DNA of 64,000 bases from Streptomyces sp. MZ04 (GTDB lineage: Bacteria > Actinomycetota > Actinomycetes > Streptomycetales > Streptomycetaceae). This document shows positions 43,353-63,143 of this stretch, in pieces. The stretch spans positions 1 through 64,000 of the forward strand of contig NZ_SRIC01000012.1 in NCBI RefSeq assembly GCF_004684775.1, written 5' to 3'. Every line of letters begins with the position of its first letter. Position 1 is the stretch's first letter. Below the pieces are notes generated by a model. The model was not told where the DNA came from. It saw only the letters and a list, made by a program, of their open reading frames with translations, and searched no databases. A program made the position numbers and the translations under genes.

Positions 43353-44387
43353 TCACCGGTTGCCGAACTCATGGGTCCGGACAGGGCCACCTGTGGTGAC
43401 GGACCGGATGGCCGCGAGGGCGATGACGAGTGCTGCCCTGGCGTCCTCTCCGGTGGCGTGGGGGGTGCGGCCCGTGCGGACGCAGTCGGCGAAGTCGGCC
43501 AGCTCGGCGACGTAGGCGTCGTGGAAGAGTTCCTGGTCGTACGTCACACATTCGGCGGCCGCGCCTGCGGGGCCGTACGCGGTCATGTGGGTGCGGTGTA
43601 TGTCGCCCACGGTCGTCATACCGGCCGAGCCGAAGACCTCGCCCCGCACGTCGTAGCCGTACACCGCCTGGAAGTTGGCCTCGGCGGTGGCTATCGCGCC
43701 GTTGTCGAAACGGATGGTCACCACGGCGGTGTCGAGCAGGCCGCCGCCCTTGAAGTCGGGGCGCACCAGGGCGTCGGCCATCGCGGACACCTCGACGGCC
43801 TCGGCGCCCGGGTTGAGCCAGCGCAGGGCGTCGAAGTCATGGATGAGTGTCTCCAGGAAGATCGTCCACGGCGGGATCGTGGCCGGGTCGGCCAGCTTCG
43901 GGTCGCGGGTGAGTGAGCGCATCAGCTGGGGCGTTCCGATGCCGCCGGACGTGATCAGATCGCGTCCCGCGCGGAACCCGCGGTCGTATCGACGGTTGAA
44001 GCCGACCTGCAGCGGGACGCCGGCCCCGTGCGCCGCGCGGATGGCACGGTCGGCGCCGTCCAGGGTGACCGCCATGGGCTTCTCGCAGTAGACGGCCTTG
44101 CCGGCGGAAGCCGCCGCCGCGACGAGATCGCTGTGGGTTCGGGCGGGGGTGGCGACCACCACGGCCTCGATCTCCGGGACGGTCAGCAGCTGTTCGATGT
44201 CCGCCACCGGATTCGGGCAGCCGAGCCGATCCGCGAGGCGCTGTGCGACACCGGGTACGGGGTCGGCGACGGCGGCGAGTCGTGCTCCAGGGATGCGCCT
44301 GGCGAGACTTTCCGCGTGGAAGGCGCCCATCCGCCCGGCGCCGATGAGTCCGATGGCGACGGGCTGCCCGGAAGTGCTGCTGGTCAT
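43353..44387 (-). CDS. Gfo/Idh/MocA dehydrogenase, inositol 2-dehydrogenase-like
   Basis: A 344-aa NAD(P)-dependent polyol or sugar dehydrogenase. The Rossmann motif is IGLIGAGRMGAFHAESL; the catalytic Lys lies in YCEKPMAVTLDGA; the C-terminal domain has GFNRRYDRGF and FLETLIHDFDALRWL with the His-Asp pair. This pattern is closest to myo-inositol 2-dehydrogenase (IolG). It follows the TIM-barrel isomerase gene by 36 bases, forming a two-gene operon under the LacI regulator divergent to it. Substrate is inferred from the inositol genes at the right end of the window. Confidence 0.9.
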   Translation of the reverse strand: MTSSTSGQPVAIGLIGAGRMGAFHAESLARRIPGARLAAVADPVPGVAQRLADRLGCPNPVADIEQLLTVPEIEAVVVATPARTHSDLVAAAASAGKAVYCEKPMAVTLDGADRAIRAAHGAGVPLQVGFNRRYDRGFRAGRDLITSGGIGTPQLMRSLTRDPKLADPATIPPWTIFLETLIHDFDALRWLNPGAEAVEVSAMADALVRPDFKGGGLLDTAVVTIRFDNGAIATAEANFQAVYGYDVRGEVFGSAGMTTVGDIHRTHMTAYGPAGAAAECVTYDQELFHDAYVAELADFADCVRTGRTPHATGEDARAALVIALAAIRSVTTGGPVRTHEFGNR

Positions 44388-44423: not shown

Positions 44424-45203
44424 TCAGCGCAGGAAGGCGGAGCGGAATCGTTCCAGGGCGACGGTGTCGTCGCCGGAGGCCCATGCCTCCATCGCGACGG
44501 TGCCCTCGTAGCCCAGGTCCGCGAGCGCCCGTGCGATCAGCGGGTAGTTGATCTCCCCGGTTCCGGGCTCGCAGCGGCTGGGGACGTCCGCGACCTGGAT
44601 CTCGCCGACGAGGCCGGAGCCGACCGCGCGGTGCAGCAGCTCGATGAGGTTTCCCTCGCCGATCTGCGCGTGGTAGAGGTCCAGGTTCATCCGCAGACCG
44701 GGCCGGTCGACGGCCTCGACCAGGGCCAGCGTGTCCTCGGCTCTGGCGAAGGGCACGCCGGGGTGGTCGACGGCCGTGTTGAGGTTCTCCAGCACGAAGG
44801 TGACCCCGTGACGCTCGCCGAGGTCGGCCAACTGTGTCAGCGTGCGGTGCGCGGCAACCCACATGGGGCCGGTGGTCCTGTGGACCGGCCGCACCGGCAG
44901 GCCTCTGCCGTCAAGGCCGGTGCCGTGCAGGTTCAGCCGGGGACAGCCGAGCCGCTGAGCCACCTCGACCGACTCTTCGGCGGTGCGCAGCAGCTCGGCC
45001 GCACCGTCCTCGTCGGTGAGGGTGCCGCGGACGTACCCCGTCATCGACGAGAACACGGCCCCGGTGCGGGCGAGTACCGCGATGTCGTGCCGCGTCCAGT
45101 CCCATATCTCGACCTGGAAGCCGAGGTCGTGGATACGGCGGACCCGCTCCTCGGCCGGCAGCTCGGTGAACACCATCTCGGCGCACACAGCCAGTTGGAA
45201 CAT
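44424..45203 (-). CDS. hydroxypyruvate-isomerase-like TIM barrel (OtnI/Hyi family)
   Basis: A 259-aa AP-endonuclease-2-type TIM barrel. The metal and catalytic motifs are TFVLENLNTAVDHPG, LRMNLDLYHAQIGEGN, IQVADVPSRCEPGTGEINY and GTVAMEAWAS, which match the hydroxypyruvate isomerase/2-oxo-tetronate isomerase group. In polyol pathways these act on ketose acids or keto-inositols. It is the first gene of the operon and is divergent from a LacI regulator; an operator lies 22 bases upstream of the ATG. Confidence 0.88.
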   Translation of the reverse strand: MFQLAVCAEMVFTELPAEERVRRIHDLGFQVEIWDWTRHDIAVLARTGAVFSSMTGYVRGTLTDEDGAAELLRTAEESVEVAQRLGCPRLNLHGTGLDGRGLPVRPVHRTTGPMWVAAHRTLTQLADLGERHGVTFVLENLNTAVDHPGVPFARAEDTLALVEAVDRPGLRMNLDLYHAQIGEGNLIELLHRAVGSGLVGEIQVADVPSRCEPGTGEINYPLIARALADLGYEGTVAMEAWASGDDTVALERFRSAFLR

Positions 45204-45224
45204 TGCCTCACCGGACCCCTCGGA

Positions 45225-45313
45225 CTAGAACGTTCTAGATGCGCCCACTCAGTACGGCATCACCGGGCGCCCGAAGTCAACAATTTCGGACCGTCGAATC
45301 TAGAACGTTCTAG
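45225..45313. promoter_or_regulatory. two identical LacI operators in the divergent promoter
   Basis: CTAGAACGTTCTAG occurs twice, exactly, at 45225-45238 and 45300-45313, centres 75 bases (about seven helical turns) apart. One faces each divergent gene. Repression with a DNA loop by the adjacent LacI protein is plausible. Confidence 0.85.
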
Positions 45314-45375
45314 TCTCGGTGGTGCGCGTGTGCTCTATCCTTGCCGACCAGGACCGGCTCGATCAGGGAGACCAC

Positions 45376-46398
45376 GTGGCGCAGCACCCCGGAGCCCGGG
45401 AAGGGAAGCGGCCGACGCTTGCCGACGTGGCCGCGTACGCAGGCGTCTCCACAGCGCTGGTCTCCATCGTCATGCGCGACGCGAAGGGAGCCAGCGCCCA
45501 GACCCGGGAGCGCGTCCTGCAGGCGGCGAAGGACATCGGCTACCGGCCCGACACCCGTGCCCGCATGCTGCGCCGCAGCCGCTCACGGCTCCTCGGCGTG
45601 CAGTTCGGCCTGCACAATCCGTTCCACTCCGACCTCGTGGAGGGTATCTACGCGGCTGCCGAGAAGGCCGGTTACGACGTCGCCCTGAGCGCGGTGGCCC
45701 CGAGCCGCAGCGAGCAGCGGGCCGTGGAGATGCTGCTGGCCGACCGCTGCGAGGCCGTGATCCTGCTCGGCCCGCAGGCTCCGGCCGCCCAACTGGCCGA
45801 ACTCGTCGGCCGACTGCCCGTCGTCGCGGTCGCGAGGCGGCTGCGTGAGCCGTCCGCGGATGTCGTACGGACCGCCGATGCCGAGGGCGTCCGTCTGGCC
45901 GTGGACCATCTCGTGGAGCTCGGCCACCAGGACATCGTGCACATCGACGGCGGCAAGGCCCCCGGTGCCTCCGACCGCCGCCGTGGCTACCGCACCGCCA
46001 TGCGTCGCCACGGACTGGCCGAGCACATCAACGTCCTGCCCGGCGGCCTGACCGAGGAGGAAGGCGCCGCCGCCGCCCGCGACGTCCTCACGACCCGCCC
46101 TCGGCCCACCGCCGTCATCGCCTTCAACGACCACTGTGCCACCGGCGTACTCGACGTCTTTCTCCGCTCCCGCGTCCGGGTACCCGCCGACATCTCCGTC
46201 GTCGGCTTCGACGACAGCCGGCTGGCGCGCCTGTCCCACGTCAGCCTCACCACCGTCGGCCAGGACGCCGCGCGCATCGCCGAACTGGCGGTGGCGCGCG
46301 CGGTCGCGCGGCTGGACGGCGAGCACGTGCCGGACCGGGAGATCGTCGTCCCCCCACGGTTCGTCATCCGCCGCACCACAGCGGCCCGTCCCGGCTGA
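45376..46398 (+). CDS. LacI-family regulator 1
   Basis: A 340-aa repressor: HTH and hinge (PTLADVAAYAGVSTALVSIVMR, ASAQTRERVLQAA), then a periplasmic-binding-like effector domain (LLGVQFGLHNPFHSDLVEGIY, VGFDDSRLARLSHVSLTTVGQD). GGGAG lies 6 bases before the GTG. It should bind the two identical palindromes upstream and control the isomerase-dehydrogenase operon. It is a close relative of the LacI proteins at 48388 and 52684. Confidence 0.93.
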   Translation: MAQHPGAREGKRPTLADVAAYAGVSTALVSIVMRDAKGASAQTRERVLQAAKDIGYRPDTRARMLRRSRSRLLGVQFGLHNPFHSDLVEGIYAAAEKAGYDVALSAVAPSRSEQRAVEMLLADRCEAVILLGPQAPAAQLAELVGRLPVVAVARRLREPSADVVRTADAEGVRLAVDHLVELGHQDIVHIDGGKAPGASDRRRGYRTAMRRHGLAEHINVLPGGLTEEEGAAAARDVLTTRPRPTAVIAFNDHCATGVLDVFLRSRVRVPADISVVGFDDSRLARLSHVSLTTVGQDAARIAELAVARAVARLDGEHVPDREIVVPPRFVIRRTTAARPG

Positions 46399-47120: not shown

Positions 47121-48113
47121 TCAGCGGGTTCCGTTGCGGGCGTAGTCCGCGATCTGCGCCACGTTCTTCTTGGTGACGATGTACGGTCCGGTCGGCACGG
47201 TCTCGTCCGCGCCGAGGACGTTCCCATTGGTCCGGTACAGCCACAGCGTGTCGATCGCCTCGTAGCCCTGCAGGTACGGCTGCTGGTCGACGGTGAACAG
47301 GACGCTGCCGTCCTTCAGCGAGGGGATCAGATCCTTGCCGAGGCCGAACGTGGCCACCTTGGCGGGACCGTCGGCAGCCCGCACTGACTTCGCCACGGCG
47401 ATGCCGTGCGGCGAGTTGAGGGTGACCACGGCATCTATGGCGCGGTCCGTTCTGAGCTTGGCGGTGACGATCGACACGAACTGGGCCATGTCCTCGCCGT
47501 TCGCGTAGAGCTTCTCGGTCCGCCCCTCGAACGTCTTCTCCAAGCCGGCGCAGCGCGCCTCCAGTTGGACCTGCCCCTGAGCCTGGAGCACGCACAGGGC
47601 GTGCTTCGCACCGGCCTTGTTCAGCTCCCTGCCCGCCTTCTCGCCGGCCGTCTCCTCGGGTTCCCCGAAATACATCATGGCGCTGGTCTTCTGCCAGGCG
47701 TCGTCCCCGGCGTTGAAGGCGACCACCGGGATTCCGGCGGCCTCGGCCTTCTTGAGAGCTCCCGCCAGCGCGGTGGGGTTCGGCAGCGTCACCGCGATGC
47801 CGTCCACCTTGCTGTCGATGGCGTTCTGTATCAGTGCGGCCTGCTTGGGCACCTCGACGGCGTTCGAGTAGACGAGCCGGACGTTGTCCTTGGCGGCGGC
47901 CGCCGTCGCACCCTTGCGTATGACGTCGAAGAACGTGTCGCCGGCCGGGGCGTGGGTGATCATCGCGATCTTCATGCGTGGCGTGTCGGCACGGCCGGCC
48001 ACCGAGGTCCGCTCCTGCTCCTGCTTGCCGCCCGAGCTGCTGCATCCGGTCGCCGCCGCCAGCAGGAGCGCGGCTGCCGACACCGTCAGCGGACGCTTGC
48101 GGGAATGCCTCAT
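47121..48113 (-). CDS. sugar-binding ABC lipoprotein 1 (orphan)
   Basis: A 330-aa periplasmic-binding-protein-like lipoprotein of the RbsB/CUT2 class. The lipobox is AATGC with C24; the ligand fold starts at MKIAMITHAPAGDTFFDVIRKGA. It is clearly paralogous to the lipoprotein at 54034. No permease or ATPase gene is adjacent, so it may feed the CUT2 transporter at 55044-57030 with another sugar. It is divergent from LacI regulator 2, with the operator pair in between. Confidence 0.9.
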   Translation of the reverse strand: MRHSRKRPLTVSAAALLLAAATGCSSSGGKQEQERTSVAGRADTPRMKIAMITHAPAGDTFFDVIRKGATAAAAKDNVRLVYSNAVEVPKQAALIQNAIDSKVDGIAVTLPNPTALAGALKKAEAAGIPVVAFNAGDDAWQKTSAMMYFGEPEETAGEKAGRELNKAGAKHALCVLQAQGQVQLEARCAGLEKTFEGRTEKLYANGEDMAQFVSIVTAKLRTDRAIDAVVTLNSPHGIAVAKSVRAADGPAKVATFGLGKDLIPSLKDGSVLFTVDQQPYLQGYEAIDTLWLYRTNGNVLGADETVPTGPYIVTKKNVAQIADYARNGTR

Positions 48114-48300: not shown

Positions 48301-48342
48301 TATTGGAGCGCTCTAGTCGCGTTACTATTGAGCGCTCCAATA
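48301..48342. promoter_or_regulatory. paired GAGCGCTC operators between lipoprotein 1 and LacI 2
   Basis: TATTGGAGCGCTCTAG and TATTGAGCGCTCCAATA share the GAGCGCTC core, centres 24 bases apart, ending 46 bases before the LacI-2 start. The same core recurs at the promoter of the desaturase operon, so LacI 2 probably controls both. Confidence 0.8.
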
Positions 48343-48387
48343 CGCGATGTCAATACCCGCCGCAATCGAGCCGAGGAGACAGCTCCC

Positions 48388-49437
48388 GTGACGCAGGACG
48401 CCGAGGCACGTACGGGCAGGCGCCCCACGCTGGAGGACGTCGCGGCGCATGCGGGGGTGTCACGGGCGCTGGTGTCCCTCGTCGTGCGAGGAGCGCCGGG
48501 CGCCAGCGCGAAGACGCGGGACCGGGTGCTGAAGGCCGCGGCCGAGCTGGGCTACCGGCGGGACGCCAGGGCGCGGCTGCTCGCGAGCAACCGCTCCGAG
48601 CTGGTCGGCGTGGTGTTCGGCATGGCCGGCACCTTCCACTTCGAGCTCCTGGACGGCCTCTACGCGGCAGCGGAGGGTGCCGGGTACGAACTCATCCTCA
48701 GCGCACTGACCCCCGGCCGTGACGAGCGGCGTGCCGTCGAGACGCTCCTGGACTTCCGGTGCGAGGCGTTGATCCTGCTCGGCCCGGAAACGCCCGCCCC
48801 CGAAGTGCCCGGCGAACTGCCCGTGGTCGTCGTCGGCTGGCGGGTCAAGGAGCCGTCGGTCGACGTCGTCCGGACCTCGGACGACGAGGGGATGCGGCAG
48901 GCGGTGGATCACCTGGTGGCCCTCGGGCACCGGCAGATCGCCCACATCGACGGCGGCCGTGGCCCCGTGTCGGTGCTCCGCCGCCGCGGATACCGCGCCG
49001 CCATGCGCCGACACGGCCTGGGCGGGCATCTGCGGGTCGTTCCCGGCGGGCAGGCCCAGGACGCGGGAGCCGCGGCCGCCCGGACCTTCCTGGAGACCGG
49101 CCAGCTGCCCACCGCTGTCATCGCGTACAACGACGATGTCGCGACCGGCCTGCTCGAGTCGTTCATCCGCGCCGGCGTCGCCGTTCCTGACGACGTGTCC
49201 ATCGTCGGGTGGGACGACAGCCGGCTCGCGCGCCTCCCGCACGTCGACCTGACGACGGTGGGCCAGGACGCGCACCGTATGGCGGGCCTCGCCCTGGCGC
49301 GCGCCCTGGCGAGGCTCGAAGGCAGGGAGGTCTCCGAGCGGGAGATCGTGCTGGCTCCGCACCTGGTCGTGCGAGGGACGACGGCCGCAGTGGCCGGGCA
49401 GAAGTGGCAGCCGAGCGCACCGGAGCGAGGCCGGTAA
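48388..49437 (+). CDS. LacI-family regulator 2
   Basis: A 349-aa repressor: HTH PTLEDVAAHAGVSRALVSLVVR, hinge SAKTRDRVLKAAAELGYRRD, effector domain with GTFHFELLDGLYAAAEG and VGWDDSRLARLPHVDLTTVGQD. GAGGAG lies 9 bases before the GTG. It sits between lipoprotein 1 (divergent) and the desaturase operon (downstream), both of which carry GAGCGCTC palindromes. Confidence 0.93.
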   Translation: MTQDAEARTGRRPTLEDVAAHAGVSRALVSLVVRGAPGASAKTRDRVLKAAAELGYRRDARARLLASNRSELVGVVFGMAGTFHFELLDGLYAAAEGAGYELILSALTPGRDERRAVETLLDFRCEALILLGPETPAPEVPGELPVVVVGWRVKEPSVDVVRTSDDEGMRQAVDHLVALGHRQIAHIDGGRGPVSVLRRRGYRAAMRRHGLGGHLRVVPGGQAQDAGAAAARTFLETGQLPTAVIAYNDDVATGLLESFIRAGVAVPDDVSIVGWDDSRLARLPHVDLTTVGQDAHRMAGLALARALARLEGREVSEREIVLAPHLVVRGTTAAVAGQKWQPSAPERGR

Positions 49438-49512: not shown

Positions 49513-49652
49513 GCGAGAGCCTGCCCCCTGCCGTCACCTCTCCGCCGTCGCCCTCCGCCGTCGCGTCGCCCGTCGCGCTGCGGCGAGAGCCTGCCCCCTG
49601 CCGTCACCCCTCCGCCGTCGCCCTCCGCCGTCGCGTCGCCCGTCGCGCTGCG
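49513..49652. repeat. 70-bp tandem duplication
   Basis: Two head-to-tail copies (49513-49582 and 49583-49652) differ at one position (T at 49539, C at 49609). The near identity shows a recent event just upstream of the desaturase promoter. Confidence 0.92.
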
Positions 49653-49661
49653 GCGGGGGCC

Positions 49662-49716
49662 TTGACATCGCCTTTTGGAGCGCTCCATAATCCACTCCAA
49701 TTTAGAGCGCTTTAAA
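49662..49716 (+). promoter_or_regulatory. promoter and LacI operators of the oxygenase operon
   Basis: TTGACA (49662-49667) and CATAAT (49686-49691) are separated by 18 bases and form a near-consensus promoter. The perfect palindrome GGAGCGCTCC fills the spacer, and a second palindrome TTTAGAGCGCTTTAAA (49701-49716) covers the expected transcription start. Strong inducible expression under LacI 2 is inferred. Confidence 0.82.
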
Positions 49717-49910
49717 AGAGGCGATGGCCGCTGACCGGCGGCCGGACGCCGTCGTCGGACGGCGCGTCGGGCAGCGTGAGCACCGCCCTCGGACTTCGGC
49801 ACCAGCCACGGTCGCCCATGCGGCTCACGGCGGGTGAGGAGGACGCCGCCGACGCCGCCCTCCTTGGCGCTACGCGGAGAACGCGGCTGGGAGAAGAGAG
49901 GTTCACGATC

Positions 49911-51008
49911 ATGGGTAAGGAACGTCTCCAGCGATACATCCTCGACGGTCCGGAAGGCGATCGCGCGGTCGCCGCCGGGCTCGCCGACGGCGACTGGTTC
50001 CGCAGTGATGTGCCGCGCGCACGTCTGAAGGAGTTGATGCGCCGCTCCGACTACCCGGCGATCCGTGACACGGCCGTCTGGCTCGGTGCCCTCGTCGTGT
50101 CCGGCCTGCTCGGGTCCGCGCTCTGGGGCGGCTGGCTCGCCGTCCCGTTCTTCCTGGTCTACGGAGTGCTCTATGGCTCGGCGTCGGACGCCCGCTGGCA
50201 CGAGTGCGGTCACGGCACGGCGTTCAGGACCCGATGGATGGACGACACCGTGTACCGGCTCGCCTCGTTCATGTGCATGAAGGATCCGACCATTTGGCGC
50301 TGGAGCCACACCCGCCACCACACCGACACCCTGGTGGTCGGCCGGGACCCCGAGATCGTGGCGATGCGGCCCGCCCGCCTCGCCCGGATTCTGGCGAACC
50401 TCTTCGGGCTCGTCGATGTGCCCCTGGCCTTCCGCGACATGGCCCTGCACGCGTGCGGACGACTCACCGCGCAGGAGAAGACGTTCGTTCCGTCCGACGA
50501 GCAGGCGAAGGTCTTCCACACCGCGCGGCTCTCATTGGTGCTGTACACGGCCACGGTCGTGATGTGCTTCGCGACCGGCTCCCTGTTGCCGGTGATGCTC
50601 ATCGGCGGCCCCCGGCTCTACGGCGCCTGCATGCTCTACGTATACAGCCTCACGCAGCACGCGGGGCTGGGGGAGAACGTGCTCGACCACCGGCTCAACA
50701 CCCGTACCGTCCGGATGAACCGGATCAACCGGTTCCTGTACTGGAACATGAACTACCACGTCGAACACCACATGTTCCCGATGATCCCGTACCACCGGCT
50801 GCCCGAGCTGCACGAGGAGATCAAGCACGACCTCGCAGCTCCGTACCCGTCGATCTGGGCGGCATACAAGGAGATCGTCCCCGCCATCCTGCGTCAGCTC
50901 AAGGACCAGACGTACTACGTCCGTCGGGAGCTGCCCGCCGGGGCCGCGCCGTTCCCCGCGCAGGACGACGGACGCGCGCTCCCGCTCCCCATGAGAGGAA
51001 CTGCCTGA
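49911..51008 (+). CDS. fatty-acid-desaturase-fold di-iron oxygenase
   Basis: A 365-aa membrane di-iron enzyme with four to five helices. The His boxes are H97ECGH101, H133TRHH137 and H283VEHH287, with TQHAGLGENVLDHRLNTRTVRMN before the third. The family includes acyl desaturases and hydroxylases. It is followed immediately by its own Rieske ferredoxin and reductase, so it has a dedicated electron supply, which is more like a catabolic hydroxylase than a housekeeping acyl-lipid desaturase. GAGAGG lies 9 bases before the ATG. Context (LacI operators, sugar transport, inositol enzymes) suggests oxidation of a polyol derivative; that is inference. Confidence 0.88.
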   Translation: MGKERLQRYILDGPEGDRAVAAGLADGDWFRSDVPRARLKELMRRSDYPAIRDTAVWLGALVVSGLLGSALWGGWLAVPFFLVYGVLYGSASDARWHECGHGTAFRTRWMDDTVYRLASFMCMKDPTIWRWSHTRHHTDTLVVGRDPEIVAMRPARLARILANLFGLVDVPLAFRDMALHACGRLTAQEKTFVPSDEQAKVFHTARLSLVLYTATVVMCFATGSLLPVMLIGGPRLYGACMLYVYSLTQHAGLGENVLDHRLNTRTVRMNRINRFLYWNMNYHVEHHMFPMIPYHRLPELHEEIKHDLAAPYPSIWAAYKEIVPAILRQLKDQTYYVRRELPAGAAPFPAQDDGRALPLPMRGTA

Positions 51009-51009
51009 C

Positions 51010-51324
51010 ATGCCCGAGTGGATCGCTGTGTGCGGTGTCGATGACATCGACCTGGAAGACGTCGTGCCGTTCCGTCACGAAGGGAACGACTACGCCGTAT
51101 ACCGCTCGCCCGACAACACCTTCTTCGCCACCGCGGGGCACTGCACCCATGAACGGCAACTCCTGTGCGACGGGCTTGTCATGGACGGCGTCATCGAATG
51201 CCCCAAGCACAACGGCCGGTTCGACTACACCACCGGCCGTGCCCAGGGTGCCCCTGCGATGACCGATCTGCCGACCTACCAGGTCAAGATCGAGGCCGGT
51301 ACCGTCCACATAGAGATCGGATGA
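51010..51324 (+). CDS. Rieske-type [2Fe-2S] ferredoxin
   Basis: A 104-aa small Rieske protein with ligands C45-x-H47 (GHCTHE) and C64-x2-H67 (ECPKHNGRFD). It should carry electrons from the reductase encoded next to the di-iron enzyme before it. It starts 1 base after the desaturase stop codon, with GAGAGGAACTG as ribosome site, and overlaps the reductase start by 4 bases. Confidence 0.95.
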   Translation: MPEWIAVCGVDDIDLEDVVPFRHEGNDYAVYRSPDNTFFATAGHCTHERQLLCDGLVMDGVIECPKHNGRFDYTTGRAQGAPAMTDLPTYQVKIEAGTVHIEIG

Positions 51325-52562
51325 GTACCGTGCCGGGCCTCGTCGTCGTCGGCGGCGGCGAGTGCGGGGCCCGCGCGGCGTTCGCGCTGCGCGAGGCGGG
51401 GTGGAAGGGGCCGGTCACCCTGGTCGGCGCGGAGGACATGCTGCCGTACGAGCGGCCGCCGCTTTCGAAGTCCGCCCTGACCGCGGCCCACCTGCCCGCA
51501 CCCGTGACCATCCGGGACTCCGATGCACTGAAAGACGCGGACATCACCTTCGTCGGGGGCGCCCCGGCGGTGGACATCGACCGCGATGTCCACAAGGTCG
51601 AACTGGCCGACGGACAGCGCATCAGGTACGAGCGGCTGCTGCTGGCCACTGGGGCGAGAGCGCGCCGGCTGCCTCTCGGCGGTGCGGCCGTGGCCGATGT
51701 CCATTACCTGCGCAGCCACGTCGACGCGCTGGCGCTGCGAAAGCGGCTGCGGCCCGGCGCGCGCATCGGTGTCATCGGCGCGGGCTTCCTCGGTCTGGAG
51801 GTGGCGGCCAGTGCGGCGAGCCGCGGTTGCGCGGTCACGGTCGTCGAGGCCGCGCCGCAGCCGATGAGCCGCGCCGTGCCCGCTCCGCTCGCCGCCACCG
51901 TCGCCGCTCGACACGCACATGCCGGTGTCGACATCCGGTGCGGCGTCGCCGTCGTCGCCCTGCGGGCTCGGGGCGACGACGTGGAGATCCGGCTCACCAC
52001 GGGCGACCCGCTCGTGTGCGACACGGTGATGGCCGGCGTCGGCGCCGTCCCGGACACCGCGCTCGCCGAGAAGGCCGGGCTCGCCGTCGAGAACGGAGTG
52101 CGCGTCGACGCACGCCTGACGACATCGGATCCCGACATCTTCGCCGCAGGCGACTGCTGCTCCTTCCCGCACCCGCTCTACGACAACCGGCGTGTCCGCC
52201 TGGAGAGTTGGCGCAACGCCCAGGACCAGGGCGTGGCGGTGGCGCGCGCCATGCTGGGTGCGGACGAGCCGTTCACAGCCGTGCCGTGGTTCTGGTCGGA
52301 CCAGTACGACCTGACCCTGCAGATCGCCGGTCTGCCCGACGCGGCCGTGACCGAGACCGTGCGCCGGCGGCCGGACGGCGTCGAGGTCCGGTACGGCATC
52401 GGAGCGGACGGCCGGCTGCTCGCCGCCAGTGCGGTGGGTCCCGGCAACGCGGTGTCCAAGGACATCCGCCTGGCCGAGACGCTCATCTCGCGACGGGCGA
52501 CCCCGGCCCCGGAGGCCCTGGCCGACCCCGTGGTCAGCCTCAAGGCGCTGTTGAGGGGGTGA
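51321..52562 (+). CDS. FAD-dependent ferredoxin reductase (ONFR type)
   Basis: A 413-aa reductase of the oxygenase-coupled class. FAD motif VVVGGGECGARAAFALREAG at the N terminus, PYERPPLSKS, LLLATGARARRLPL, the NAD motif IGVIGAGFLGLEVAASA, and IFAAGDCCSFPH for FAD; the C-terminal domain has WFWSDQYDLTLQIAGLP. It passes electrons from NAD(P)H to the Rieske ferredoxin. The three genes form one translationally coupled unit. Confidence 0.94.
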   Translation: MSTVPGLVVVGGGECGARAAFALREAGWKGPVTLVGAEDMLPYERPPLSKSALTAAHLPAPVTIRDSDALKDADITFVGGAPAVDIDRDVHKVELADGQRIRYERLLLATGARARRLPLGGAAVADVHYLRSHVDALALRKRLRPGARIGVIGAGFLGLEVAASAASRGCAVTVVEAAPQPMSRAVPAPLAATVAARHAHAGVDIRCGVAVVALRARGDDVEIRLTTGDPLVCDTVMAGVGAVPDTALAEKAGLAVENGVRVDARLTTSDPDIFAAGDCCSFPHPLYDNRRVRLESWRNAQDQGVAVARAMLGADEPFTAVPWFWSDQYDLTLQIAGLPDAAVTETVRRRPDGVEVRYGIGADGRLLAASAVGPGNAVSKDIRLAETLISRRATPAPEALADPVVSLKALLRG

Positions 52563-52600: not shown

Positions 52601-52683
52601 TTCCTGTTAATCTGCGTGCGATCTCTACGGGCGTCGAGCGGGGGTTCTTGTCTGAGCGGCGGCGAATGGGCGGGGGAGGGAAC

Positions 52684-53736
52684 ATGGATGAGCCGGGGCG
52701 CGGCCTCGGCGGCAACGGCCCCCGTCCGCGACTGGAGGACGTCGCCGCCCTGGTGGGGCTGTCGTCGGCGACGGTCTCCCTCGTCCTCAGGAGCGCGCCC
52801 GGTCCCAGCGCGCAGACCCGTGAGCGGGTCTTGGGGGCCGCGCTGCGACTCGGCTACCGCCCCGACCGGACGGCGAGTCTGCTCGCGCGTCGGCGCTCCC
52901 GGCTGCTCGGCGTCATGGTCGACATCCGCAACACCTTCCACACCGAACTGGTCGAGCATCTCTACGCCGCGGCAGAGGAGTTCGGCTATGACCTCTCCCT
53001 CAGTACCCTGACCCGCGCCCGTGGCGAGCCCGAGGCCATCGAGACGCTCCTCGACTCGCGGGCCGAGGCGCTGATCCTCCTCGGGGCCGAGGCCTCCGCC
53101 GCACGCCTGGCCTCACTCGACCGGCACCTGCCGGTAGTCGTCGTCGGGCGGGGGATCGCCAACGCCGAACTGGACGTCGTGCGGACCTCGGACGAGGAGG
53201 GCTTGGACCGGGCGGTGGAGCATCTGGTGCGCCTGGGGCACCGTGACATCGCCTTCATCGACGGTGGCGGAGGGGTCGTCGCGGTGGACCGGCGCCGGGG
53301 CTACCGCACGGCGATGGGGCGGCACCGGCTCGCCGATCGGATCAGGATCCTCCCCGGCTCCCACACGGAGGAAGCCGGGGCGCGGTCGGCGGAACGGCTG
53401 CTCGACGAGGGCGAGCTGCCGAGCGCGGTCGTGGCATCCAACGACCGCTGTGCCGTGGGGCTCTTCAGTGCCCTGACCCGTGCGGGCATCGACGTGCCTG
53501 GCGCCGTCTCCGTGATCGGCTACGACGACAGCGTGCTGTCCCGGCTCGCCGTCTTCGGCCTCACCACCGTCAGCCAGAACCCGGAGGAACAGGCGCACCG
53601 CGCGGTGGCGGCGGCCGTCGAGCGGCTCGACGGCGACCGCTCGACCCGCCGCGAGATCGTCCTGGTCCCGCGCCTGATCGTCCGCGGCAGCACGGCCGCC
53701 CCCGGAGGACAAGGGCCGGGGGCGCGGCGCGCATAG
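52684..53736 (+). CDS. LacI-family regulator 3
   Basis: A 350-aa repressor: HTH PRLEDVAALVGLSSATVSLVLR, hinge SAQTRERVLGAALRLGYRPD, effector domain VMVDIRNTFHTELVEHLYAAAEE and IGYDDSVLSRLAVFGLTTVSQN. The ATG was chosen after GGAGGGA; a TTG at 52648 would add 12 residues. It probably governs the following ABC transporter operon and itself. It is paralogous to the two other LacI proteins. Confidence 0.93.
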   Translation: MDEPGRGLGGNGPRPRLEDVAALVGLSSATVSLVLRSAPGPSAQTRERVLGAALRLGYRPDRTASLLARRRSRLLGVMVDIRNTFHTELVEHLYAAAEEFGYDLSLSTLTRARGEPEAIETLLDSRAEALILLGAEASAARLASLDRHLPVVVVGRGIANAELDVVRTSDEEGLDRAVEHLVRLGHRDIAFIDGGGGVVAVDRRRGYRTAMGRHRLADRIRILPGSHTEEAGARSAERLLDEGELPSAVVASNDRCAVGLFSALTRAGIDVPGAVSVIGYDDSVLSRLAVFGLTTVSQNPEEQAHRAVAAAVERLDGDRSTRREIVLVPRLIVRGSTAAPGGQGPGARRA

Positions 53737-54033: not shown

Positions 54034-55044
54034 ATGAACCGTATGAGATCTCGTAAGACGACTGTCATAGCCGCCGCCTGCACGGCAGGTGTTCTCCTCG
54101 CAGCCGGTTGCAGCAGCAGCGCCGGTGGCAAGAAGGCCGAGGAAGAAGGGAACCCGGTCTCGGCGGGCAAGGCCAACACGCCCCGGATGAAGATCGCGAT
54201 GATCACCCACGCCCCTCCGGGCGACACGTTCTGGGACCTCATCCGCAAGGGCGCCAAGGCGGCAGCGGCGAAGGACAACGTCGAACTCGTCTACTCCAGC
54301 GACCCCAACGCCGCCACCCAGGCCAATCTGATCCAGAACGCCGTGGACCAGAAGGTCGACGGCATCGCCATCACCCTGGCCAAGCCGGACGCGATGAAGG
54401 ACGCGATTGCCAAGGCACGTAAGGCGGGCATCCCGGTCGTCGGCTTCAACGCCGGTCTTGACGCCTGGAAGCAGCAGGACCTGCTCTCCTACTTCGGACA
54501 GGACGAGAAGGTGGCCGGCCAGGCGTTCGGCGAGCGGCTGAACAAGCTCGGGGCCAAGCACAACATCTGCGTCATCCAGGACCAGGGCCACGTCGCCCTC
54601 GAAGCCCGCTGTGCCGGTGTCAAGAAGACGTTCAAGGGCACCACGGAGAACCTGTACGTGAACGGCACCGACATGCCGTCGGTGAAGGCGACCATCGCCG
54701 CGAAGCTCAAGCAGAACTCCAAGATCGACTACGTGGTCACGCTCGGTGCGCCGATCGCCCTCACCGCGGTGCAGTCGGTCGCCGACGCCGGCGGCAAGGC
54801 GAAGGTCGCCACGTTCGACCTCAACAAGGACCTGGTCCGCGCCGTGCAGGACGGCGCCGTCGAGTTCGCCGTCGACCAGCAGCCATACCTCCAGGGGTAC
54901 CTGGCCGTCGACGGCCTCTGGCTCAACAAGTCCAACGGCAACTTCAGCGGCGGCGGCGCGGCCCCCGTGCTGACCGGTCCCGCCTTCGTCGACAAGGACA
55001 ACGTCGACGCCATCGCGAAGTTCGCCTCGAAGGGCACCCGGTGA
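54034..55044 (+). CDS. sugar-binding ABC lipoprotein 2
   Basis: A 336-aa CUT2-type binding lipoprotein. Lipobox LLAAGC with C25, then a flexible GGKKAEEEG linker and MKIAMITHAPPGDTFWDLIRKGAK; it is paralogous to lipoprotein 1 with the same opening motif. It delivers a sugar or polyol to the permease and ATPase encoded directly downstream (TGATG overlap). GCAGGA is the ribosome site. Confidence 0.93.
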   Translation: MNRMRSRKTTVIAAACTAGVLLAAGCSSSAGGKKAEEEGNPVSAGKANTPRMKIAMITHAPPGDTFWDLIRKGAKAAAAKDNVELVYSSDPNAATQANLIQNAVDQKVDGIAITLAKPDAMKDAIAKARKAGIPVVGFNAGLDAWKQQDLLSYFGQDEKVAGQAFGERLNKLGAKHNICVIQDQGHVALEARCAGVKKTFKGTTENLYVNGTDMPSVKATIAAKLKQNSKIDYVVTLGAPIALTAVQSVADAGGKAKVATFDLNKDLVRAVQDGAVEFAVDQQPYLQGYLAVDGLWLNKSNGNFSGGGAAPVLTGPAFVDKDNVDAIAKFASKGTR

Positions 55045-56138
55045 TGACCCAACCCCAGACAGCCACGTCGGCTGTACCCGTGCCTCCCGTGCCTCCCTTG
55101 CCTCCCGCGCCTCCCACTGTGCAGAGGGACGGCCGAACTGCCGAGCGTTCACTGACGCGCAGGCTGATGGCCCGTCCGGAGATCGGCGCGCTCATCGCCG
55201 CCGTCGGTGTCTACGTCTTCTTCTTCGCGGTCGCCCCGTCGTTCCGCGAGGCGGGCTCCGTCGCCACCGTGCTCTACCAGGCATCGGTCATGGGCATCAT
55301 GGCGCTGCCCGTGGCGCTCCTGATGATCGGCGGCGAGTTCGACCTGTCCGCGGGCGTCGCCGTCACCACGTCGGCGCTCACCGCCAGCATGCTCAGTTTC
55401 CAGCTGTCGGCGAATGTGTGGACCGGGGTTTTCGTCGCGCTCCTCGTGTCGCTCGCCATCGGCGCGTTCAACGGCTTTCTGCTGATGAAGACGGGACTGC
55501 CCAGCTTTCTGATCACGCTCGGTACGTTCCTGATACTGCAGGGCGCCAACCTGGCCATCACCAAGATGTTCACCGGCAACGTCGCCACCGATTCGATCAG
55601 CGACATGGACGGCTTCGGCCAGGCCAAGTCCCTCTTCGCCTCGGAGGTCGGCATCGCCGGGATCGACGTCAAGATCACCGTGCTCTGGTGGCTGGTCTTC
55701 GCCGCGGCCGCCACCTGGCTGCTGCTGCGCACCAAGTTCGGCAACTGGATCTTCGCCGTCGGCGGCAACAAGGACAGCGCCCGCGCCGTCGGGGTCCCGG
55801 TGAACCTCACCAAGATCGCACTGTTCATGGGGGTGGGCGCAGGCGCCTGGTTCGTCGGCATGCACCTGCTGTTCGCCTTCAACACCGTGCAGTCCGGCGA
55901 GGGTGTCGGCAACGAGTTCCTCTACATCATCGCGGCGGTCATCGGCGGTTGCCTGCTCACGGGCGGCTACGGCTCGGCGGTCGGGGCGGTCCTGGGCGCC
56001 GTCATCTTCGGCATGGTGTCCCAGGGCATCGTCTACGCCAACTGGAACCCCGACTGGTTCAAGGCCTTCCTGGGCGTGATGCTCCTGCTCGCCGCACTCG
56101 TCAATCTGTGGGTCCGCCGCCAGGCGACCAGGAGGTGA
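55044..56138 (+). CDS. CUT2-type sugar ABC permease (RbsC-like)
   Basis: A 364-aa permease with about ten helices and a Pro-rich cytoplasmic N terminus (PVPPVPPLPPAPPT). The family blocks ALPVALLMIGGEFDLSAG, FNGFLLMKTGLPSFLITLGT and NEFLYIIAAVIGGCLLTGGYG are clear. It pairs with itself in the membrane and with the half-size ATPase. A GTG one codon earlier could also start translation. Confidence 0.93.
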   Translation: MTQPQTATSAVPVPPVPPLPPAPPTVQRDGRTAERSLTRRLMARPEIGALIAAVGVYVFFFAVAPSFREAGSVATVLYQASVMGIMALPVALLMIGGEFDLSAGVAVTTSALTASMLSFQLSANVWTGVFVALLVSLAIGAFNGFLLMKTGLPSFLITLGTFLILQGANLAITKMFTGNVATDSISDMDGFGQAKSLFASEVGIAGIDVKITVLWWLVFAAAATWLLLRTKFGNWIFAVGGNKDSARAVGVPVNLTKIALFMGVGAGAWFVGMHLLFAFNTVQSGEGVGNEFLYIIAAVIGGCLLTGGYGSAVGAVLGAVIFGMVSQGIVYANWNPDWFKAFLGVMLLLAALVNLWVRRQATRR

Positions 56139-56142
56139 TCGC

Positions 56143-57030
56143 ATGACAACGGAGAAGTCCGCACCCCACGAGTCCACGCCCGAGGAAGCCGGACCCATCG
56201 TCGAGCTCAAGAGCATCGGCAAGTCCTACGGCAACGTCCGTGCGCTGCACGGCGTCGACCTGGCGGTCGAGCCGCGGCAGGTGACGTGCGTCCTCGGCGA
56301 CAACGGCGCCGGCAAGTCCACTCTCATCAAAACCATCTCCGGGCTGCACCAGCACACCGAAGGCGACTACCTCATCGACGGCAAGCCGGTGCATCTCAGC
56401 ACCCCGCGCCAAGCCCTCGACCGCGGCATCGCCACCGTGTACCAGGACTTGGCCACCGTGCCGTTGATGCCGGTATGGCGGAACTTCTTCCTCGGCTCGG
56501 AACTCACCCGAGGCCCCTGGCCGTTGCGCCGCCTGGACATCGAGCGAATGAAGGAGACCGCGGACCACGAGCTGCGCAACATGGGCATCGTGCTCGACAA
56601 CCTCGACCAGCCCATCGGCACTCTCTCAGGTGGCCAGCGCCAGTCCGTGGCCATCGCCCGGGCCGTCCACTTCGGCGCCCGTGTGCTCATCCTCGACGAG
56701 CCCACGGCCGCACTCGGCGTCAAACAGTCCGGTGTCGTGCTGAAGTACGTCGCAGCCGCCCGCGAGCGCGGCCTCGGTGTCATCTTCATCACCCACAATC
56801 CGCACCACGCCTACATGGTCGGCGACCACTTCGCCGTACTGCGGCTCGGCACCCTCGACCTGAGCGCCTCCCGCGATCAGGTCACCCTCGACGAACTCAC
56901 CCATCACATGGCCGGCGGTGCCGAACTCGCCGCGCTGAAGCACGAACTCGCCCAGGTACAGGGCATCGACGTCGAAGAACTCCCGGAGGAATCCACGTCC
57001 CTGCGGGCCGCTTCGGCAGCCAGTCCCTGA
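56143..57030 (+). CDS. half-size sugar ABC transporter ATPase
   Basis: A 295-aa ATPase of the CUT2 family with one nucleotide-binding domain instead of the usual two (RbsA, MglA are about 500 aa). Walker A GDNGAGKSTLIK (about 48-59), signature LSGGQRQSVAIAR, Walker B VLILDEPTAALG, switch His in ITHNPHHAYMVG. The C-terminal extension is acidic. It should act as a homodimer, like FrcA-type proteins. The ATG lies 4 bases after the permease stop, with AGGAGG in the overlap. Confidence 0.93.
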   Translation: MTTEKSAPHESTPEEAGPIVELKSIGKSYGNVRALHGVDLAVEPRQVTCVLGDNGAGKSTLIKTISGLHQHTEGDYLIDGKPVHLSTPRQALDRGIATVYQDLATVPLMPVWRNFFLGSELTRGPWPLRRLDIERMKETADHELRNMGIVLDNLDQPIGTLSGGQRQSVAIARAVHFGARVLILDEPTAALGVKQSGVVLKYVAAARERGLGVIFITHNPHHAYMVGDHFAVLRLGTLDLSASRDQVTLDELTHHMAGGAELAALKHELAQVQGIDVEELPEESTSLRAASAASP

Positions 57031-57106: not shown

Positions 57107-57233
57107 ACCGTGGCCCGATCCGGTGAGGCCCGACGAGCAGGAGCCGGAACATCCCTCCCGAGGCGGATTGCTCTGACGAAGGTCACGGCTTGGCTGGGTG
57201 CCCGCCAACCGTCCGTACACCAAGCGAGGTCCA

Positions 57234-57901: not shown

Positions 57902-58900
57902 TCAGAGAGCGGCCGCGGCGCCGTGCAGGTTCTTGGCGGCGAGGGCGAGCCCCTCGGTCTGGGAGAAGGCGGCGTCTTCGTGCTCGATGTTGACGGCCAT
58001 GTCCGGGTCGATCTCGGCCAGTGCGCGAAGGAACTCGGTCCAGAAGGGCACGTCGTTGCCCAGGCCGACGGCGACGAACTTCCAGGCTGGGTTCTCCGGC
58101 CAGGCGTTGCACCAGAAGCCGATGCCGGTGGGCACCTTGCCCTCGGCGTCCGCGGGCACGCGCGTGAACGAGGTGTCCAGGACACCGCGGATGTCCGCGC
58201 CGGGGCACAGCGTGGCGTCCTTCGCGGCGGCGTGGAACACCAGCGGGCCGAGCCACTTGATGGAGGCGACGATGTCCATGCCCTGCCACATCAGGTGGGA
58301 GGGGTCCATCTCGGCGCCGAGGTTGGTCGCGCCGGCCTCGTCGACGAGCCGCTTGAGGGTGACCGGTGAGAACACCACGTTGTGCGGGTGCATCTCGATG
58401 GCGACCCTGACGTCGTTCTCGCGGGCGAGTGCGTCGATCTCCTTCCAGAACTCGACGGCCACGCCCCACTGGTAGTCGAGTACGTCCAGGTAGACGCCGT
58501 CCCAGGGATTGACGACCCAGGAGGGGTACTTGGCTTCGGGGTCGGATCCCGGAGTGCCGGACATGGTCACGACGTGCTTCACGCCGAGCAGCCCCGCGAG
58601 CCGAACGGTGCGGCGCAGGTCGTCGGCGTGCTTCGGCCCGACGCCCGGGAGCGGGTTGAGCGGATTGCCGTTGCAGTTGAGCCCGGTCAGTTCCATCCCG
58701 CGTTCGGCGAAGGCCGCCAGGTACTCCTCGCGCGCGGTGGCCGAGGACAGCAGCAGGTCGACCGGGCAGTGCGGGGCGGGGATGAACCCACCGGTGTTGA
58801 CCTCGACGGAGGTCAGGCCGTTGTCCTTGAGGATGTCGAGGGCCTCGGTCAGGGGCAGGTCGTGCAGACAGGCGGTGTAGGCGCCGAGCTTGAGGGCCAT
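57902..58900 (-). CDS. sugar phosphate isomerase/epimerase-like TIM barrel
   Basis: A 332-aa AP-endonuclease-2-type TIM barrel. Metal-binding Glu/Asp/His motifs lie in VRVAIEMHPHNVVFSP, NLGAEMDPSHLMWQGMD and VFHAAAKDATLC, and VNIEHEDAAFSQTEG is near the C terminus. It is the last gene of the five-gene minus-strand operon and would epimerise, isomerise or dehydrate a keto-inositol (IolE-, IolI- or IolH-like). Longer than the isomerase at 44424, with which it shares only the fold. Confidence 0.88.
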   Translation of the reverse strand: MALKLGAYTACLHDLPLTEALDILKDNGLTSVEVNTGGFIPAPHCPVDLLLSSATAREEYLAAFAERGMELTGLNCNGNPLNPLPGVGPKHADDLRRTVRLAGLLGVKHVVTMSGTPGSDPEAKYPSWVVNPWDGVYLDVLDYQWGVAVEFWKEIDALARENDVRVAIEMHPHNVVFSPVTLKRLVDEAGATNLGAEMDPSHLMWQGMDIVASIKWLGPLVFHAAAKDATLCPGADIRGVLDTSFTRVPADAEGKVPTGIGFWCNAWPENPAWKFVAVGLGNDVPFWTEFLRALAEIDPDMAVNIEHEDAAFSQTEGLALAAKNLHGAAAAL

Positions 58901-58931: not shown

Positions 58932-60128
58932 TCAGCGGGCGGACGGGACCGCAACGCCGGTGCCGCCATTGCGGGAGGACTCGACGACGGCCTGGATGAT
59001 CTCCATCGTGCGCAGACCGTCGGCGAACGTGGCGCAGGCCGGGCGTGGGTCGGCGACGCCCGCGACCTGGTCGAGGAAGGCCCGGGCCTGGTACGTGAAC
59101 ATCTCGGCGTTGCCGCCTCCCACACCCGGCGCCTCCATCGGGTAGCCGCCGGCGAAGTACGGCAGCTGCGGGCCGGCGATGATCTGGCGGGCTCCTCGGG
59201 TGCGGGCCTCGGGCTGGGCGTCGTCGAGGACGTACTCAGCAGGCCGGTGCTGGTCGAACGCGGCCCGGCCGCCAAGTCCCAGCACGTCGAAGGCGAGCCC
59301 GTTGGGCAGGCCGAAGGCGGTCCGTGACAACGAGAAGGTGCCCACGAGACCGGACTCGAAGCGAGCGGTGAACGACGCGGTGTCCTCGTTCTCGACCTCG
59401 CCGAACTCGTCCGAGACGGGCGCGGCGTTGTGCCCGACGACCGCGCCAAGCGGCAAGGGCCGCTTGGTGATCTGTGTCGAAAGGGAGGCGCCGGAGACCG
59501 CGGCGATGGGTCCCGCGACGTACTCGGCGGCGTCGATCACGTGCGCGCCGACGTCCCCGAGTGCGCCGGAGCCGGGGCCGCCCTTGAATCGCCAGCTCAG
59601 TGGCCCGTTCGGGTCGGTCGCGTAGTCGCACCAGTACCGGCCGCTGAACAGCGTGAGGTCACCCAGCTCGCCGTTGCGGACATGATCGCGGATCCCGGCG
59701 ATGGCGGGAGAACGGCGGAAGGTGTACCCGACGGCGGTCACCACATCGGTGGCGCGCTCCAACTCGGCCATCGCACGGGCGTCTTCGAGCGAGCCGGCCA
59801 GCGGCTTCTCGCACAGCACGTGCTTGCCCGCGGCGACGAGCGCCTCGGCGATCGGGCGGTGCAGATGGTTGCCGACGACGATGCTGACGGCGTCGATCGT
59901 CGGGTCCTCGGCGACGGCCTCCCAGCTCGCAAGCGCCTTCTCGTACCCGTAGCGGCGGGCGGCGTCCTCGCCGAGTTCGACATGGGCATCGGCTATCGCG
60001 GCCAGCCGGACCGGCGGCAGGCCGGCGCCGAAGACCGTGTTGACGTTGCGGTAGCCGGCGGCGTGGCTGCGGCCGGCCATGCCGGCTCCGATCACCGCGA
60101 CGGAGAGAGGCTTGCTGGACGTAGACAT
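58932..60128 (-). CDS. Gfo/Idh/MocA-family dehydrogenase 2
   Basis: A 398-aa polyol or sugar dehydrogenase. Rossmann motif VAVIGAGMAGRSHAAGYRN, catalytic Lys in LCEKPLAGSLEDARAM, C-terminal FKGGPGSGALGDVGAHVIDAAEYV with the catalytic Asp/His. It differs clearly from the one at 43353 and may act on a different inositol isomer or on a scyllo- or methyl-inositol. The ATG follows GAAGGG; a TTG start 5 codons upstream is less likely. Confidence 0.9.
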   Translation of the reverse strand: MSTSSKPLSVAVIGAGMAGRSHAAGYRNVNTVFGAGLPPVRLAAIADAHVELGEDAARRYGYEKALASWEAVAEDPTIDAVSIVVGNHLHRPIAEALVAAGKHVLCEKPLAGSLEDARAMAELERATDVVTAVGYTFRRSPAIAGIRDHVRNGELGDLTLFSGRYWCDYATDPNGPLSWRFKGGPGSGALGDVGAHVIDAAEYVAGPIAAVSGASLSTQITKRPLPLGAVVGHNAAPVSDEFGEVENEDTASFTARFESGLVGTFSLSRTAFGLPNGLAFDVLGLGGRAAFDQHRPAEYVLDDAQPEARTRGARQIIAGPQLPYFAGGYPMEAPGVGGGNAEMFTYQARAFLDQVAGVADPRPACATFADGLRTMEIIQAVVESSRNGGTGVAVPSAR

Positions 60129-60180
60129 GGCTGTGCCCTTCAAGGGGATCGAGGAGGTGAAGAAGGTGGCGGATGCGGGA

Positions 60181-63132: not shown

Positions 63133-63143
63133 GTGGGGGGTCC

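Follow-up and report, generated by a model that had tools for sequence, protein, structure and literature searches.

The DNA stretch analyzed here (the window) comprises the first 64,000 of the 66,839 bases of contig NZ_SRIC01000012.1 of Streptomyces sp. MZ04, whose genome is 9.1 Mb long. The MMPL gene of this genome is 83% identical to a gene on a Streptomyces plasmid, and Streptomyces accounts for 28 of 61 plasmid records with DNA matches, whereas an aspartate aminotransferase reaches 72% identity in S. ureilyticus, 65% in P. acaciae and 70.6% in a Nonomuraea record. The window contains three genes, referred to below as mocD, mocE and mocF (Table 1), that encode a membrane di-iron oxygenase, a Rieske ferredoxin and a ferredoxin reductase related to putidaredoxin reductase, and whose likely role in the use of methylated inositols is considered below. 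All three frames are open and intact. Only 1 nucleotide separates mocD from mocE, and mocE and mocF share an ATGA overlap, which makes the trio a tightly coupled operon. An earlier description made from the DNA letters alone (the sequence-only reading) had proposed just such an operon of a desaturase-fold enzyme with intact His boxes, a Rieske ferredoxin and an ONFR-type reductase, and Pfam matches agree with it. The window MocD has the superfamily domain and the three His boxes, and the 11 His-box and Asp-His positions checked are invariant in all 46 MocD rows. The mocD reading frame is open from GTG 49776; ATG 49911 downstream of it, which is preceded by GAGAGG, yields a protein of 365 amino acids and agrees with the starts called in two relatives, is the likelier start. 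The protein is the single MocD match in its own genome, which has two further desaturase-family genes elsewhere.

A tblastn search of plasmids with the window MocD matched 284 records, 246 of which cover at least 80% of the protein; most are from Rhizobium and Sinorhizobium, and one of the matches listed is annotated as mocD. In alignments, MocD is 57% identical to MocD of Rhizobium etli CIAT 652 (59.7% in the tblastn match). Identities to five Rhizobium/Sinorhizobium rows are 49–57% for MocD and 52–63% for MocE, the latter range being the same with seven MocE rows, and MocF is 46–53% identical to five MocF rows. The trio was named MocDEF because of the plasmid MocD matches and because the best model for the ferredoxin is the MocE family, TIGR02377. 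Judged by these comparisons, the operon is a homologue of MocDEF, a precedent that the sequence-only reading had missed. Rhizobial mocCABRDEF loci for rhizopine catabolism encode the same three proteins in the same order. In papers that cite the original work, the MocD oxygenase is reported to convert the rhizopine 3-O-methyl-scyllo-inosamine (3-O-MSI) to scyllo-inosamine (SI), with the inositol pathway downstream, and mocDEF is described as rhizopine-catabolic and rhizopine-inducible (PMC2593844, PMC10107442, PMC5132102). The window locus differs from mocCABRDEF in having LacI genes and no MocR, binding proteins of the myo-inositol type, adjoining iolD, iolB and mmsA, and an actinobacterial host; its MocD also falls outside the rhizobial clade.

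No sequence match of MocD to the PDB was found at E 1. A structure model of the protein (mean predicted local distance difference test score, pLDDT, 79) gave as top fold matches 8xks_K (Z 18.1) and 8xqw_M (Z 17.5), chains of chloroplast motor complexes whose titles do not identify the chain. The next match was the alkane monooxygenase AlkB-AlkG (Z 11.7 for 8f6t and 11.4 for 8sbb), a Z of 11.7 being within the range that a helical-bundle arrangement alone can reach. The modelled fold thus agrees with a membrane di-iron oxygenase, as in AlkB-AlkG, and is silent on the substrate, which for AlkB-AlkG is an alkane. The partner of AlkB is a rubredoxin, where MocD has a Rieske ferredoxin. Fusion of oxygenase and redox partner occurs in AlkB-AlkG systems, and natural MocD-MocE (desaturase-Rieske) fusions were observed at three actinobacterial loci (L093, L094 and L095; L-numbers denote loci).

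The near-consensus promoter with LacI palindromes that had been described upstream of the operon is present (Table 1). Its TTGACA-18-CATAAT sequence at 49662–49691 matches the consensus at 11 of 12 positions, and two promoter-like sites occur in 6 kb versus 0.1 expected. A similar pair of operators lies at the promoter of the binding-protein gene at 47121..48113 (the 47121 binding protein), and the first operator is equidistant from the -35 box at both promoters. The similar pairs point to a single LacI regulon that would cover both uptake and demethylation. When the genome was searched for the operator with at most two mismatches, 25 sites were retrieved, three of them in the intergenic stretches of mocD and the 47121 binding-protein gene. 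Since the reversed pattern gave 18 sites, those outside the locus are not above background, and a wide regulon of LacI regulator 1 was rejected. The palindromes found twice upstream of LacI regulator 0 are of a type different from the mocD operators. Upstream of mocD, a 70-base GC-rich unit is repeated in 2.1 copies with 96% matches (49513–49662) and ends where the -35 box begins. The earlier description needs one correction here, as three LacI genes and two binding proteins of the inositol type are present around the operon.

Rhizobial mocDEF genes also lie next to lacI, the locus of R. leguminosarum 3841 being of the LacI type. In one study of such clusters, lacI of the FixV type is found beside mocDEF and a TIM-barrel protein, as in the window, and the clusters are suggested to concern an inositol derivative; in Mesorhizobium loti, nifA2 is activated by FixV, a homologue of the mocDEF-adjacent lacI of other rhizobia, and the signal may be an inositol derivative (PMC3538637). 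In contrast to the window, part of the rhizobial loci have linked genes for a PanB-like protein, PurU and FolD. The LacI proteins of R. etli and Sinorhizobium meliloti gave no blastp match at 1e-5 to window LacI 1 or 2, while window LacI 0 matches some rhizobial mocDEF-linked LacI at 34–46%. A 16-base palindrome with a central CG (7 of 8 pairs) was searched for upstream of mocD in eight plasmid loci, including one MocR-type locus, and none was found. A LacI subfamily common to rhizobia and the window is thus not supported by the comparison of LacI 1 and 2; since these belong to a different subfamily, LacI control of the window operon looks like a separate pairing, and the link to FixV concerns the rhizobial branch only.

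The genes that surround the operon are listed in Table 1. Pfam and NCBIfam searches recovered the neighbourhood reported from the DNA letters, namely two Gfo/Idh/MocA dehydrogenases, a major facilitator superfamily (MFS) sugar porter, mmsA and two PF01261 TIM barrels; iolD was also recovered, its call being based on the thiamine pyrophosphate (TPP)-enzyme domain and its place. Beyond the end of the window, the same contig carries iolB (above cut-off) and a Cgl0159-type aldolase-like gene (PF22649, 395 bits). Both binding proteins match 4RU1, described as a verified myo-inositol transporter (PMC10747050). As the structure model of the binding protein is weak (mean pLDDT 62), its assignment relies on the 4RU1 sequence match. 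The set resembles actinobacterial iol operons with a CUT2 inositol transporter of the 4RU1 family, which likewise combine iolD, iolB, a Cgl0159-type aldolase-like gene, mmsA, a Gfo/Idh gene and an inositol-type ATP-binding cassette (ABC) transporter. Unlike an ordinary operon of this kind, it is the second iol set of its genome and has mocDEF added: contig C576 (locus L180) carries another iol cluster, with an iolE-type gene (below cut-off), iolC (above cut-off), an aldolase-like gene, iolB, iolD and mmsA, and the iol genes of the window are therefore an extra set. A protein with a CAP domain (PF00188) is encoded at 57198–57821, in the stretch that separates the ABC transporter genes from the iol-like operon.

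Table 1. The mocDEF operon, its control elements and the surrounding genes, with positions in the window.
Feature	Position	Strand	Basis
mocD promoter with two LacI operators	49662..49716	+	11/12 promoter match; operators 49674-49689 (over -10) and 49701-49716
mocD, membrane di-iron oxygenase	49911..51008 (frame open from 49776)	+	PF00487, 136 bits
mocE, Rieske [2Fe-2S] ferredoxin	51010..51324	+	PF00355
mocF, NAD(P)H ferredoxin reductase, ONFR-type	51321..52562	+	PF07992 (Pyr_redox_2) and PF14759 (Reductase_C)
Gfo/Idh/MocA inositol dehydrogenase, IolG-type	43353..44387	-	PF01408; TIGR04380 iolG 316 bits, cut-off 355
TIM-barrel isomerase/epimerase adjoining iolG	44424..45203	-	PF01261; hydroxypyruvate isomerase type, below cut-off
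Two LacI-type palindromes (around CTAGAACGTTCTAG) between TIM barrel and first lacI	45224..45314	.	45224-45239, 45299-45314
LacI regulator 0	45319..46398	+	PF00356, PF13377
CUT2 substrate-binding protein, myo-inositol type	47121..48113	-	4RU1 E 3.7e-101; NCBIfam rhizopine substrate-binding protein 169.6 bits, cut-off 420
Promoter of 47121 binding protein with mocD-type LacI operator pair	48303..48353	-	TTGACA-18-AATAGT, 10/12; operators 48303-48316, 48327-48340
LacI regulator 1, candidate regulator of mocDEF and 47121 binding protein	48388..49437	+	PF00356, PF13377; GTG start 48388 likely
LacI regulator 2	52648..53736	+	Pfam; 63% to lacI in the corresponding Pseudonocardia acaciae cluster
CUT2 substrate-binding protein, myo-inositol type	54034..55044	+	4RU1 E 7e-114, 60% identity
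ABC permease	55041..56138	+	PF02653
ABC ATPase, single domain	56143..57030	+	PF00005
TIM-barrel protein of iol-like operon	57902..58900	-	PF01261 79.4 bits; no NCBIfam match
Gfo/Idh/MocA dehydrogenase 2	58932..60143	-	PF01408; best NCBIfam levoglucosan dehydrogenase 264.6 bits, cut-off 650
MFS sugar porter	60181..61623	-	PF00083; TIGR00879 above cut-off
mmsA (iolA)	61639..63243	-	TIGR01722 690 bits, above cut-off; start uncertain
iolD, runs past window end	63144..64000	-	PF02775 (TPP-enzyme domain) and position

The surroundings of mocD were compared with those of other desaturase genes. The mocD set, mostly rhizobial, consisted of the best 80 of at least 585 confirmed MocD loci in a one-genome-per-species collection. 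As controls, 40 regions around other desaturases were picked from 20 genomes searched, the regions coming from 17 genomes, the window's own included. Five of them contained a second MocD copy (L144, L146, L154, L157 and L164; 47–55% identity to the window MocD) and were excluded; among the remaining 35, a MocD-like match at 31% is present in three and a match to MocF in one. Locus L031 of the mocD set also has a second copy (48%), located about 2 kb from the first, and such copies are perhaps for another methylated substrate. A gene within about 10 kb was counted if its match reached E 1e-15, covered 60% of the query and had 28% identity, with “inositol-type” standing for Gfo/Idh, TIM barrel, IolC or IolD and “one-carbon” for PanB-like, PurU or FolD. 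A gene of either type was found in 70 of the 80 best MocD loci versus none of the 35 control regions, the inositol type being present in 63 and the one-carbon type in 42. By family, the 80 loci contained Gfo/Idh (37), TIM barrel (45), IolD (2) and IolC (2), as well as PanB-like (42), PurU (8) and FolD (5). Since rhizobia dominate the set and two broad families carry most of the inositol signal, the one-carbon genes and the dereplicated figures are the fairer evidence. Among 24 representatives drawn at 80% MocD identity from 84 loci (the 80 plus L096–L099), 11 have an inositol-type gene, nine a one-carbon gene and 15 either one, versus 0/35 in the controls. Of the 80 best loci, 67 have a divergent lacI no more than 1.5 kb from mocD, 75 an adjacent MocE and 69 a downstream MocF.

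These figures bear on the view that MocD is a common fatty-acid desaturase, or a hydroxylase of lipids, whose place near sugar genes is accidental. Such an enzyme would have the Pfam FA_desaturase fold, as MocD does, and in the S. ureilyticus locus, where neighbours were named by Pfam, genes of the thioesterase, CoA-ligase and aldo/keto reductase types are found near mocDEF. However, the linkage seen around MocD is absent from the 35 regions around other desaturases, the three other desaturases compared lack the Asp-His motif of MocD, and the NCBIfam desaturase model, DesB, gives the window MocD 47.9 bits against a cut-off of 500. On the neighbourhood (in which lipid genes were not systematically counted), the family scores and the motif, we rejected a lipid desaturase as the classification, and we regard this alternative as extremely improbable.

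In an actinobacterial metagenome-assembled genome (MAG; L014), mocD, mocE, mocF, iolB, iolE, iolC, a Cgl0159-type aldolase-like gene, a Gfo/Idh gene, iolD and a short-chain dehydrogenase/reductase gene follow one another on one strand. In Pseudonocardia acaciae (L012), iolD is accompanied by genes of a binding protein, a permease and an ATPase (55, 62 and 67% identical to those of the window), and then by lacI (63%) on the opposite strand, Gfo/Idh, TIM barrel, mocD (75%) and mocE. At L097 and L098, a fused MocD-MocE is encoded between iolD and iolG, with iolC and window-like ABC transporter genes upstream. The search for the trio beside iol genes, which had been suggested along with the sequence-only reading, was positive. 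In a 49-row MocD tree, the window protein belongs to a five-row clade (support 100/98), whose other members are from two actinobacterial MAGs, P. acaciae and S. ureilyticus. Two loci without inositol genes have a gene for a luciferase-type monooxygenase near mocD (L011, 8311–9285, and L092, 2513–3571), and some MocDs may therefore serve another pathway.

With the window genome counted, mocD was found in 1 of 297 genomes of the family, 2 of 394 of the class and 5 of 396 of the phylum; of the other four genomes matched in the phylum sample, two have it in iol operons, one on a short contig and one (L096) without an iol gene. Such rarity is what one would expect of a horizontally acquired relic that looks intact and is not used. 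The open frames, intact motif residues, promoter and operators, together with the place of the protein in the actinobacterial clade, make this very improbable.

A further alternative is that the trio demethylates or hydroxylates a different cyclitol or sugar, such as an aminocyclitol or a methylated monosaccharide. The second Gfo/Idh protein of the window is closest to levoglucosan dehydrogenase, and the first TIM barrel is of the hydroxypyruvate isomerase type; elsewhere, a gene for xylose isomerase is found near iolG in the mocDEF locus of Burkholderia, and xylA2 adjoins mocDEF of Pseudomonas syringae. Against this stand mmsA, iolD, iolB and the two inositol-type binding proteins around the trio, and the iol operons that enclose mocD at L014, L097 and L098, and we consider such a substrate unlikely.

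Rhizopine catabolism proper, in which the trio would demethylate 3-O-MSI as in rhizobia, is suggested by the MocDEF homology itself. Moreover, the NCBIfam rhizopine substrate-binding protein is the best-scoring model for both binding proteins of the window, and Gfo/Idh genes with an iolE-type TIM barrel are also present in the moc locus of R. leguminosarum A1. Rhizopine loci are, however, regulated by MocR, a member of the pyridoxal phosphate (PLP) aminotransferase family. A tblastn search of the whole window with MocR gave a best E of 0.33 over 18 residues, and MocR was found in none of the 80 best MocD loci; among plasmids, 14 records had MocR at 80% identity or more versus the 246 with nearly full-length MocD. 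The binding proteins match the myo-inositol-binding protein strongly, one of them at 60%. In the tree, a clade of rhizobial type with 22 rows (100/100) contains the three MocR-linked MocDs together with LacI-linked ones and leaves the window protein out; a single clade of MocR-type MocDs was not rejected by the approximately unbiased (AU) test (p 0.502). Given the lack of MocR and the distance in the tree between the window MocD and the MocR-linked ones, we rejected a rhizopine locus as classification, and 3-O-MSI as the substrate here appears quite unlikely.

We consider it probable that the mocDEF trio, under LacI control, serves to demethylate an O-methyl-inositol at its O-methyl group, with release of formaldehyde and entry of inositol into the iol pathway. 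Import of the cyclitol would be due to the CUT2 ABC transporter, the MFS porter or both. Electrons would pass from NAD(P)H through MocF and the Rieske protein MocE to the membrane di-iron center of MocD, which would hydroxylate the methyl carbon, and the resulting hemiacetal would collapse to free inositol and formaldehyde. Dehydrogenases of the IolG/MocA type would then oxidize inositol to inosose, which would be degraded via IolD, IolB, the aldolase and MmsA, with iolC and iolE-like genes supplied from elsewhere in the genome. We infer that LacI 1 is the partner of the operators and represses mocDEF and one binding-protein gene until a methylated inositol, or its product, is present. As to the specific substrate, pinitol is a guess among several. 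The sequence-only reading had arrived at a modified polyol, for example an O-methyl-inositol, demethylated to feed the inositol pathway; the genomic context in two phyla supports this part, while the direct precedent, rhizobial activity on 3-O-MSI, had been missed.

A weakness recognized from the start was that no formaldehyde-detoxifying gene was visible in the window. Indeed, searches of the 64 kb for PanB-like protein, PurU and FolD gave no convincing match. Elsewhere the genome encodes two mycothiol-dependent formaldehyde dehydrogenases and one PurU, all above cut-off, and one weak PanB-like match (37%) with one internal TGA. In relatives, PanB-like, FolD and PurU genes are linked to mocDEF, which suggests folate as the carrier of the one-carbon unit there; among three rhizopine loci of the MocR type, both annotated ones have PanB-like and PurU genes. 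The objection is therefore eased, though it stands as regards the window itself. In Streptomyces sp. MZ04, formaldehyde would go to the mycothiol-dependent dehydrogenases, while in many relatives the linked PanB-like protein, FolD and PurU would route it through folate to formate, and in rhizobia the PanB-like protein together with PurU and FolD may handle formaldehyde. A PanB-like protein follows mocDEF in many rhizobia (L002–L005, L009 and L190 among them), the L004 copy being below the PanB cut-off. We know of no function assigned to this protein.

Several observations, in addition to the lack of one-carbon genes in the window, weigh against O-methyl-inositol demethylation. The ferredoxin scores 127.2 bits with the MocE model, 9 bits short of its cut-off of 136.15, and the scores of the binding proteins and of IolG are also under the equivalog cut-offs. 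The inositol signal in the 80 loci comes mostly from the broad Gfo/Idh and TIM-barrel families, and 10 of these loci (L011, L013, L027, L031, L046, L051, L058, L062, L081 and L090) have neither signal, five of them (L013, L027, L051, L081 and L090) being cut by contig ends. Among the actinobacterial relatives, S. ureilyticus, the nearest by tree path, has mocDEF but lacks inositol genes in the surrounding 10 kb; the 19 kb of L096 are devoid of iol genes and show just an MmsA-like match at 30%, with a luciferase-type monooxygenase gene next to mocD; the contig with the third fusion (L095/L099), 10.7 kb long, has no inositol gene; and in P. acaciae and the fusion loci no MocF is linked. The original work on MocDEF (Bahar et al. 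1998) is known here through the papers that cite it.

In open-access literature, we found no paper naming bacterial genes that demethylate O-methyl-inositols; subscription papers were mostly outside this search. Legumes are rich in pinitol and related O-methyl-inositols. In root exudate of Mimosa pudica, pinitol (145 uM) is the most concentrated component listed, inositol being at 0.73 uM, and in R. mesoamericanum exposed to this exudate mocDEF is up 1.5–2.1 fold, with iolB, iolC and mmsA up too (PMC5789663). The authors of that study read the induction as rhizopine use, which, like the small size of the rise, is a further point against our interpretation. Demethylation of pinitol would explain these data at least as well as rhizopine use.

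We tentatively extend this to a wider proposal, which we hold to be slightly more apt to fail than to stand. Most MocDEF systems in nature might be general O-demethylases of O-methyl-inositols (pinitol, ononitol and their kin), often with a linked PanB-like/FolD/PurU folate route for formaldehyde. Rhizopine catabolism would then be a later offshoot in which LacI was swapped for MocR, FixV of Mesorhizobium loti would sense a plant O-methyl-inositol, and the window would be an actinobacterial member with operators of its own and a private iol set. If O-methyl-inositol demethylation is the true function, mocDEF would be a marker for the use of methyl-inositols by bacteria of soil and rhizosphere, and a testable function would be gained for many genes currently annotated as fatty acid desaturase or rhizopine oxygenase. 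The substrate of MocD, a membrane di-iron enzyme, would then be very polar, and its Rieske partner is sometimes fused to it.

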